In this document: positions 8,301 to 22,824 of the stretch, one piece after another
Layout of the letters: each line of letters opens with the position of its first letter
How positions within the stretch are numbered: position 1 is the first letter of the stretch
Assembly (NCBI GenBank): GCA_009746045.1
Contig: RPFO01000065.1
Span: forward strand, 7,769,576-7,833,575
DNA length: 64,000 bases
Reading direction: 5' to 3'
DNA from: Mesostigma viride
Taxonomy: Eukaryota; Streptophyta; Mesostigmatophyceae; Mesostigmatales; Mesostigmataceae
The notes under the pieces: model-generated
Databases searched by the model: none
The model's input: only the letters and a program-made list of their open reading frames with translations
What the model was told of the DNA's origin: nothing
Program-made: the position numbers and the translations under genes

Positions 8301-11300
8301 GAGATAGAGAGAAGAGAGACACGCAGAAAGAGATAGAGAGAAGAGACACACAGAAAGAGATAGAGAGAAGAGAGACACACAGAAAGAGATAGAGAGAAGA
8401 GAGACACACAGAAAGAGATAGAGAGAAGAGAGACACAGAAAGAGATGGAGAGAAGAAAGACACACAGAACGAGATAGAGGGATTCAATGGGAACAAAGAG
8501 AAGTTAGTAGCAACAAAAAGCAATCGAAGGCAGAAAAAGACATTCATTGAACGCAGGCACAAGTTGTATTATTCAGGGCTTTAAACGTGTGTGGCCCACG
8601 TAAGCCACGTCACCCAAAAACACATGTACAACCCCCCCACCCCCACCCCCACCCCCACCCCCACCCCCCCAAAAGGACCCGACACATAGTCAAGTAATGA
8701 AAATAGCTAAAACAAACAAGACATCCAATGTGGCACATAACAAGATCAGTTCCTCCAGACAAGATTAGTTCACCCCCCCCCACCTGGTTCTTCCAGACAA
8801 GATTAGTTCACCCCCAACCACCTGGTTCTTCCAGACAAAACTAATTTACCCACTTACCTGGTTCTTCCAGACAAGATTAGTTCACCCACCCACCTGGTTC
8901 TTCCAGACGAGCCGCGTGGCATAGAAATGTACAATCAGGAAGGGTATGATGACCGGCTTGACAATGCTGTACAGCATGCCGACGAGGATGAACAGGAGCT
9001 GGGGCGCGACCTCGCGGACAAGTGGCGGAGTGCCAACGCGCCACGCGTTCCTGAAGTCGACAGCCGTTCTGCACACAAACTTGACGCGGAAGAAGTAAGT
9101 GACCGCCGTGGCCGGCCGAACGAGCTCAATGGGGAGGATGATGAATGTGTTGACGATGAGGTAGATGATGAAGAAGGTGCCCGTCACAGGGACCGCCTTT
9201 GCGACCTCGTCTACCGACGAGAACCCGTGCTTGATGAGGTCCTTAAGGGAGGAGAAGAGCGTGGTAAATGTGAGCGCACCAAGCACGATGTTGATGTTGT
9301 AGAAGACGAAAGACATCATCATTGCGCGGTGCTCGATGCCCGACCAGGAGATGTGCCCCTCCTTGTGGGAGAGCCAGAGCGTGACGCGGGGCAGCAGCGT
9401 GCGGGTCACGGAGAGGAGTAGTACGGCGGGGATGATGCCGGAGAAGAAGCCTTTACGGAGCGGGCTGGCGTGGGTAGGGGTGTGTGAGTTGGTCCGCAGG
9501 TGTGTACATTTGTGTGGATGTGAGTGGGTGGCAGTGGGTGAAGAAAGAGGGAGGGGAGGGAGGGAGGGAAGGAGGGAGGGAGGGAGGGAGGGAAGGAGGA
9601 AGGGAGGGAGGGAGGGAGGGAGGGAGGGAGGGAGGGAGGGAGGGAGGGAGGGAGGGAGGGAGGGAGGGAGGGAGGGAGGGAGGGAGGGAGGGAGGGAGGG
9701 AGGGAGGGAGGGAGGGAGGGAGGGAGGGAGGGAGGCAGGGAGGGAGGGAGGGAGGGAGGGAGGGAGGGAGGGAGGGAGGGAGGGAGGGAGGGAGGGAGGG
9801 AGGGAGGGAGGGAGGGAGGGAGGGAGGGAGGGAGGGAGGGAGGGAGGGAGGGAGGAGGGAGGGAGGAGGGAGGGAGGGAGGGAGGGAGGGAGGGAGGGAG
9901 GGAGGAGGGAGGGAGGGAGGAGGAGGGAGGAGGGAGGGAGGGAGGGAGGGGAGGGAGGGAGGGAGGAGGGAGGGAGGGAGGGAGGGAGGGAGGGAAAGGA
10001 GGGAAAGGAGTGAAAGGAGTGAAAGGAGTGAAAGGGGTGAAAGGAGGGAAAGGAGGGAAAGGAGGGAAAGGAGGGAAAGGAGGGAAAGGAGGGAAAGGAG
10101 GGAAAGGAGGGAAAGGAGGGAAAGGAGGGAAAGGAGGGAAAGGAGGGAAAGGAGGGAAAGGAGGGAAAGGAGGGAAAGGAGGGAAAGGAGGGAAAGGAGG
10201 GAAAGGAGGGAAAGGAGGGAAAGGAGGGAAAGGAGGGAAAGGAGGGAAAGGAGGGAAAGGAGGGAAAGGAGGGAAAGGAGGGAAAGGAGGGAAAGGAGGG
10301 AAAGGAGGGAAAGGAGGGAAAGGAGGGAGGGAGAGTGATAGAGAGCGCGCGCGCACAAGAGAGAGAGAGAGAGAGAGAGAGAGAGAGAGAGAGAGAGAGA
10401 GAGAGAGAGAGAGAGAGAGAGAGAGAGAGAGAGAGAGAGAGAGAGAGAGAGAGAGAGAGAGAGAGAGAGTGTGTGTGTGTGTGTGTGTGTGAAGGTGGGT
10501 GGGTGGGTGGCATGGGGAGGGGAGGGGAGGGAAGGGCGGGGCAAAGAGGGGGAGAAGAAGAGAGGCAAACGGGGTGGTGGGGTGAGGCGGGAGGCATTGC
10601 AGAGAGGGCGAACAAGGGGCCAAACAAACAGACAGACAGATGGGGAGCACCAAATACACAGCAGGTAATACCACCAACAGACACAGCCAGAAAAATATCA
10701 GCCTTTACAATAGATTTCTGGCGGGGGGCAAAAGACCGAGTGCAAGTGGGCCAACCGGAGGAAGTTTGGCATCCCAGGTGAGCAAACCAACAAGCACACA
10801 CATGGGGAATGTGGCTGGAATCCAAGCCCTTCAGCGAGGGGTTGCCTTTGTTACGCCGAGTGGAAGTGAGCAATCGAGGTGAGGCGGACAAGCTCATGGA
10901 GAAAGAAAGACTTGGGCGTAAGGAGGATATTCAGTCTACGTTACCTATGAATTTCTCAAGCGACAGCATACAAATCTTTCCTTCCTGATCTATTATAGCA
11001 TCACACACATCTCCTTGGCCTTGAGGTTCCCAAATCCCAGCCTTCCTGTCCAGCGATGTCATGCGTTCAATCAGGCTAATCCACTTTTTCCTGTATCGTC
11101 TATGTACCTAATTATGTATGTAATCTTTTCGTCAATGCACCTATTTATCTATGTAATCTAGTTCTTCATCACGTTGGCTACTTTACAGCCCTACTCACAC
11201 AGCTCTTGATCTTGAAAAACTTGATCCGTTCCACGAACTGTTATGTTTAGCTGCATCGTCTTGCTTTTAACTCACGTCTCGTTGATCTAAACGAACTGAA

Positions 11301-22824: not shown

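Follow-up and report, generated by a model that had tools for sequence, protein, structure and literature searches.

Copies of exon–intron junctions in the introns of an apparent plant-lineage alga are probably products of frequent local tandem duplication

A question raised by this locus is whether exon–intron junctions are preferentially copied into the introns that they border, or whether such copies are just what remains recognizable of a more general duplication of DNA. In the window, i.e. the whole stretch of 64,000 nucleotides analysed here, the sequence-only reading had noticed splice-boundary copies in the introns of neighbouring genes, had regarded them as a possible general mode of intron growth and had considered a process anchored at junctions, for which it knew no name. 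Our analysis bears out the original observation, i.e. the junction copies are real, and indicates that frequent local tandem duplication combined with differential decay probably explains them, with no need for a process that seeks out junctions. The host looks like a plant-lineage alga, as judged by the 33 hits that the chlorophyll a/b-binding family has in the assembly and by a gene with a WRC domain, which is known as plant-specific. Matches to the WRC domain occur in both halves of a very long predicted exon of 1,588 codons on the minus strand of the window (51239-56002). Five of the chlorophyll a/b-binding matches, on contigs C1457 and C1459, have equal scores, with four of them lying within ~540 kb of C1457, perhaps as a result of recent expansion.

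The copies were noticed in two genes. The minus-strand gene encodes an OSCA channel, as identified by the Pfam domains RSN1_7TM, PHM7_cyt and RSN1_TM and by PDB relatives, and the plus-strand gene encodes pyroglutamyl peptidase I (Peptidase_C15 in Pfam). The boundaries of OSCA intron 5 are fixed, because exon 5 matches positions 51-237 of RSN1_7TM and exon 6, weakly, positions 238-274. A further minus-strand gene, DRE2, is identified by matches to Anamorsin_N (E=7e-6) and CIAPIN1 (E=0.003), both slightly below the Pfam cut-off. The relevant features, with the support for each in brackets where it was recorded, are:

16247..16603, minus strand: OSCA exon 1, with RSN1_TM (Pfam and gene finder)
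14404..15177, minus strand: OSCA exon 2 (RSN1_TM below cut-off, and gene finder)
14231..14378, minus strand: 74-nt tandem duplication, 96%, entirely within OSCA intron 2
13555..14051, minus strand: OSCA intron 2, seven decayed copies of the end of exon 2, five of them across the donor (local alignment)
13061..13102, minus strand: OSCA exon 3 (gene finder only)
11403..11968, minus strand: OSCA exon 4, with PHM7_cyt (Pfam, PDB relatives and gene finder)
11189..11309, minus strand: OSCA intron 4, two copies of the end of exon 4 with its donor (local alignment)
8894..9464, minus strand: OSCA exon 5, with RSN1_7TM 51-237 (Pfam and gene finder)
8749..8908, minus strand: array of 36-38 nt units across the OSCA exon 5 donor, intron 5 (repeat scan)
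5361..8219, minus strand: predicted OSCA exon 6 (gene finder; homology for its start only, RSN1_7TM 238-274)
18812..18916, plus strand: peptidase exon 4
18984..19013, plus strand: peptidase intron 4, copy of the exon 4 donor junction, 25/30 (local alignment)
20780..20827, plus strand: peptidase exon 5 (gene finder and homology)
21676..22069, plus strand: peptidase intron 5, decayed copies of the acceptor junction (local alignment)
22153..22272, plus strand: predicted peptidase exon 6 (gene finder and homology)
39002..39080, minus strand: DRE2 intron, donor-adjacent duplication of period 42, inside the intron and not spanning the junction

Alignment confirmed junction copies in OSCA introns 2, 4 and 5 and in peptidase introns 4 and 5, with direct repeats spanning both 5' and 3' exon–intron boundaries. 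In OSCA intron 2, where the copies are graded in decay, five span the junction (13998-14051, 13887-13921, 13669-13741, 13622-13668 and 13555-13588) and two contain exon sequence only (13952-13981 and 13823-13840). Their alignment scores are mixed (25-47 between exon and copy, 14-46 between copies); the nearest two copies match each other as well as they match the exon, and similarity to the exon does not consistently exceed similarity among the copies. In OSCA intron 4, the two copies at 11189-11238 (38/50 identical) and 11270-11309 (29/40) are joined by a weak third one at 11002-11025 (19/24), and the array in OSCA intron 5 is plainly tandem. Peptidase intron 5 carries three clear acceptor copies, at 21971-22025 (40/55), 21856-21890 (29/39) and 21676-21713 (29/40), along with short and weak ones at 22051-22069 and 21940-21951. 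The related duplication that had also been proposed for DRE2 is present as a donor-adjacent repeat, with 37 nt from base +2 of the intron recurring 42 nt further on (32/37 identical), but it does not include the exon and thus is wholly intronic.

Selection might keep the copies as decoy or alternative splice sites, and retention of AG in 9/11 acceptor copies and of GT in 14/21 donor copies could be taken in this sense. By our estimate, however, GT retention in the donor copies is near the level of neutral decay, and copies are graded in their decay. Moreover, in OSCA introns 2, 4 and 5 and in peptidase intron 4, an in-frame stop is found 1-41 nt into the intron, ahead of the copied donors; therefore, if a normal protein is made, the exon-proximal donor is the one in use. 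Maintenance of the copies by selection thus appears quite improbable.

Recurrence was surveyed in ~188 kb of joined readable sequence around the window, which represents one contig's neighbourhood (contig C1468 of a 440-Mb assembly with 2,243 contigs); all survey rates rest on this neighbourhood and on five introns of OSCA paralogs. Genes were predicted by a small self-trained finder, and 64 donors and 64 acceptors were taken beside well-scoring exons. Exclusion of junctions in mostly masked simple repeat (2/64 donors and 7/64 acceptors) left 62 + 57 = 119 junctions, and a junction copy was defined as a local direct-repeat alignment with a score of at least 36 that spans the anchor and involves up to 600 nt of intron. 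Such copies were present at 26/119 well-predicted junctions (17/62 donors and 9/57 acceptors), i.e. they do recur across genes, as had been proposed. The peptidase exon 4 donor copy is outside the 26, since the finder sets this donor 13 nt too early, and an acceptor copy at L035 (score 34) was left out of the counts. The unmasked survey supersedes earlier searches with the first 100 intron bases masked, which had yielded 11/64 and 12/62 donors. With copies at 5/9 junctions the window's two genes are above the rest of the sample, as one would anticipate for genes chosen on account of their junction copies; one of these five hits, the acceptor copy in OSCA intron 4, is weak and consists of simple CCCT-rich sequence.

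This weak low-complexity hit and the richness of the genome in simple repeats could point to chance, composition or assembly error as the source of the copies. Yet shuffled introns produced only 0-1/119 junction copies in each of ten runs, and past the first 100 intron bases 13 direct junction copies compare with 1 inverted one. Most copies are also diverged, unlike products of collapse or duplication errors in an assembly. An artefactual origin is thus very improbable.

For comparisons of rates, a Pfam-supported set of ten predicted genes was used, of which one is weakly supported; most other predicted genes were also tested with Pfam. In this set, gene 8, with Hydrolase (E=0.04) as its sole match, is presumably an enolase-phosphatase, as recognized on inspection; genes 6 and 20 probably represent chains that fuse several genes. 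This wider set replaced a previous one with 15/32 donors, which was biased upwards by genes partly picked for their hits. An RNA-family scan as well as a tRNA gene scan gave 0 matches.

Junction copies also occur in OSCA paralogs on three other contigs, where five introns, fetched as small pieces, showed them at 3/10 junctions, i.e. at donors in L032 (36/39) and L033 (73/88) and at an acceptor in L034 (39/55). The L032 copy covers positions -32..+7 of the donor, with no match reported past +7, and therefore is not a plain 113-nt unit. In L033 the exon overhang is 62 nt, which reaches the edge of its piece, and a 45-nt ceiling on exon overhang that had been considered was dropped as at least partly an artefact. 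L031 (~1380-1520) and L032 (~1920-2061), which represent OSCA paralogs 23 kb apart, are near-identical in an exon end and donor, including repeats of GACCAGGTA, with the remainder of the fetched pieces being unlike; gene conversion is a possible reason for this near-identity. At the apparently homologous junction, the OSCA gene in the window has a different, 36-nt array. In L034 (103-190), an 18-nt minisatellite (GCAGGCTTTGAACTACTA) begins directly after the donor of the OSCA paralog; the unit at its start is degenerate and opens with the GCAG of the exon.

Recurrence in many introns is also what one would see with a mobile, introner-like element that bears splice sites. However, every copy resembles its own junction and not other introns, and three copy-bearing probes searched against the 440-Mb assembly each matched their own place only, a single-place result limited to these three probes in a search that skips very common words. 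Unlike with introner-like elements, there is thus no dispersal of one sequence across introns for these probes, and a mobile element is hardly credible as the source. A reverse transcriptase ORF (RVT_1) at L019 6449-7786 probably belongs to a retroelement.

Whether junctions are preferred depends on the control. The sequence-only reading had proposed a comparison with mid-exon sequence, and the excess that it anticipated does exist, with copies at 26/119 junctions versus 0/483 anchors located at least 60 nt inside exons (6/127 for anchors 40 nt inside). This comparison is non-discriminating, however, because tandem duplication together with selection on exons predicts the same outcome. Mid-exon sequence is unsuitable and indeed misleading as a control, because exon sequence can reach an intron by tandem duplication only where the unit extends across a junction, and selection would tend to purge duplications within exons. 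The useful control for junction preference is a point deep inside an intron. Such anchors were duplicated in 126/856 cases in all predicted genes, which corresponds to a junction/deep-intron ratio of 1.48. In the Pfam-supported genes, 24/97 junctions versus 118/732 deep-intron anchors gave a ratio of 1.53 (0.96-2.26 in a bootstrap over 71 introns, which does not assume, as Fisher tests do, that anchors in one intron are independent). Donors in these genes carried copies at 1.95 times the deep-intron rate (16/51; 1.22-2.82), acceptors at ~1.1 times (8/46). Intergenic anchors (17/294 with a copy) can provide a hint only, given incomplete annotation. Overall, duplication is nearly as frequent at deep-intron points as at junctions.

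We propose that the DNA of this alga, and its introns above all, would undergo frequent local tandem duplication. Where the duplicated unit extends over a splice junction, the site next to the exon would stay in use in the RNA, the extra copy would be buried and the intron would grow by one unit, with repeated rounds of duplication generating arrays. Once buried, the copy would decay neutrally, with selection preserving the exon half of the original. As a consequence, an exon–intron pair would stay recognizable for longer than intron–intron pairs, and junctions would look preferred.

Divergence between the copies is consistent with this scheme. In the 32 copies belonging to the 26 junctions, identity amounts to 77% on the exon side and to 67.5% on the intron side (Wilcoxon p=0.01, with copies that share an intron not being independent), whereas in the 126 interior duplications it is 80% on one side and 78% on the other. 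With 'recent' defined as an identity of 88% or more, junction copies comprise 22 old and 4 recent cases versus 71 old and 55 recent ones among interior duplications (Fisher p=0.008). In a simulation with random breakpoints, a fixed exon and neutrally decaying intron DNA (160 trials per time point), the junction/deep-intron ratio was 1.60, or 1.53 with third codon positions drifting at half the neutral rate. The observed 1.53 matches this range of 1.53-1.60; therefore survival of the exon partner alone gives an overall excess of that size. Thus, the idea of copying that is specific to junctions or anchored at them was not supported, as what excess there is has the size expected from a conserved exon partner and decaying intron partners.

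The fit is not uniform, however, since recent copies and several short patches match the simulation poorly. For recent copies, found at 4/119 junctions versus 55/856 deep-intron anchors, a ratio of 1.5-1.6 is expected but 0.5 (0.11-1.26) was observed; for old copies it is 2.24 (1.34-3.50) versus a simulated 1.54-1.59. We would attribute this mismatch to turnover of multi-copy arrays in introns, which is outside the model. As to shape, the periods of junction copies are 36-141 nt in 22/26 cases, and 15/26 extend over 60% or more of their period, with the other 11/26 reaching 12-56%; among interior duplications 113/126 attain 60%. The mean exon overhang is 0.33 of the period, versus 0.5 expected. 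The mixed alignment scores of the copies in OSCA intron 2 also speak against the scheme, as does the presence of local direct duplications in exons (8.8% of bases in seven genes).

It is in these features that one could see true hotspots, at which a mechanism coupled with transcription or splicing copies short patches of exon ends into the adjoining intron. An exon end, above all at a donor, would then enter its own intron at about double the rate at which other intron DNA is duplicated, in some cases as a short patch without tandem arrangement, and intron lengthening would partly be a by-product of gene expression. The donor rate of 1.95 times the intron rate, the 11/26 copies that are short for their period, the short exon overhang and the L032 patch without a matching flank all speak in favour. 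On the other hand, the overall ratio equals the simulated survival effect, acceptors (8/46) hardly differ from deep-intron anchors (118/732) and recent copies are no commoner at junctions than elsewhere in introns. We therefore consider junction or donor hotspots unlikely, and tandem duplication with differential decay remains our preferred explanation.

The process does not lack a name. In the accessible portions of two reports on lancelets (PMC3087553; PMC3902484), junction-spanning minisatellites are named 'mirages' and are described for the globins BflGb6 and BflGb9, Adh3, PGBD5 and troponin C, with units of 10-160 bp, many of them with GT/AG. Splicing is reported there to be undisturbed, the mechanism of origin is called unclear and mirages are proposed to be seeds of new introns. 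In addition, tandem genomic duplication has been cited as a model for the gain of introns, with cases from potato RdRp, ATP2A1, fission yeast and Drosophila mentioned in the parts available of PMC4974935 and PMC2891723. Like mirages as described in these excerpts, the copies reported here are minisatellite-like direct duplications across 5' or 3' exon–intron boundaries. Their host, by contrast, is chlorophyll-bearing and plant-like, as known here from sequence alone, and, unlike in the named lancelet cases, they affect about a quarter of the well-predicted junctions in Pfam-supported genes and are mostly old and decayed. With tandem genomic duplication, as presented in those excerpts, they share the local duplication of DNA with splice signals that alters gene structure; here, however, it is lengthening of existing introns that is seen, rather than gain of new ones. 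Ordinary birth and slippage of intron minisatellites is likewise local and direct and overlaps in its range of periods, and is probably the same process, except that here the unit takes in the edge of an exon and one partner is thereby frozen by selection. We file the algal copies under the known mirage type, at unusual frequency; the literature searched, partly in the form of excerpts and with subscription papers outside its scope, contained no report of junction-spanning duplications in an alga. Should the copies prove equally frequent across the genome, this alga would offer a far richer mirage system than the few lancelet genes named in the excerpts.

What emerges is an explanation of intron lengthening that is simple and based on measurement, with exon edges acting as fossils in which old duplications stay recognizable, such that the same scan of junction copies versus deep-intron anchors could be applied to any annotated genome. 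That the copies add to intron length, as the sequence-only reading had held, is reflected in the seven genes used for this measure (partly picked for having hits), where recognizable local duplications together with simple repeats occupy 32% of the 53 kb of intron sequence. Local direct duplications account for 24% of the unmasked bases in these introns (shuffled 0.8%) and for 8.8% of the bases in the exons of the same genes (shuffled 1.8%). In 21 kb called intergenic, they account for 9.4% (shuffled 0), or 15% together with simple repeats, which again is a hint only as annotation is incomplete. Duplications thus seem commoner in the introns of the seven genes (24%) than in DNA of contig C1468 called intergenic (9%), a comparison in which the annotation is weak. 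The window itself also contains 2 kb of (GATA)n at 35824-37836 (~503 units, 100% match by TRF), 1.4 kb of (CCCT)n at 29980-31402, an array of four 184-nt units with 93% match at 28475-29204 and one of eight 35-nt units with 100% match at 60903-61184.
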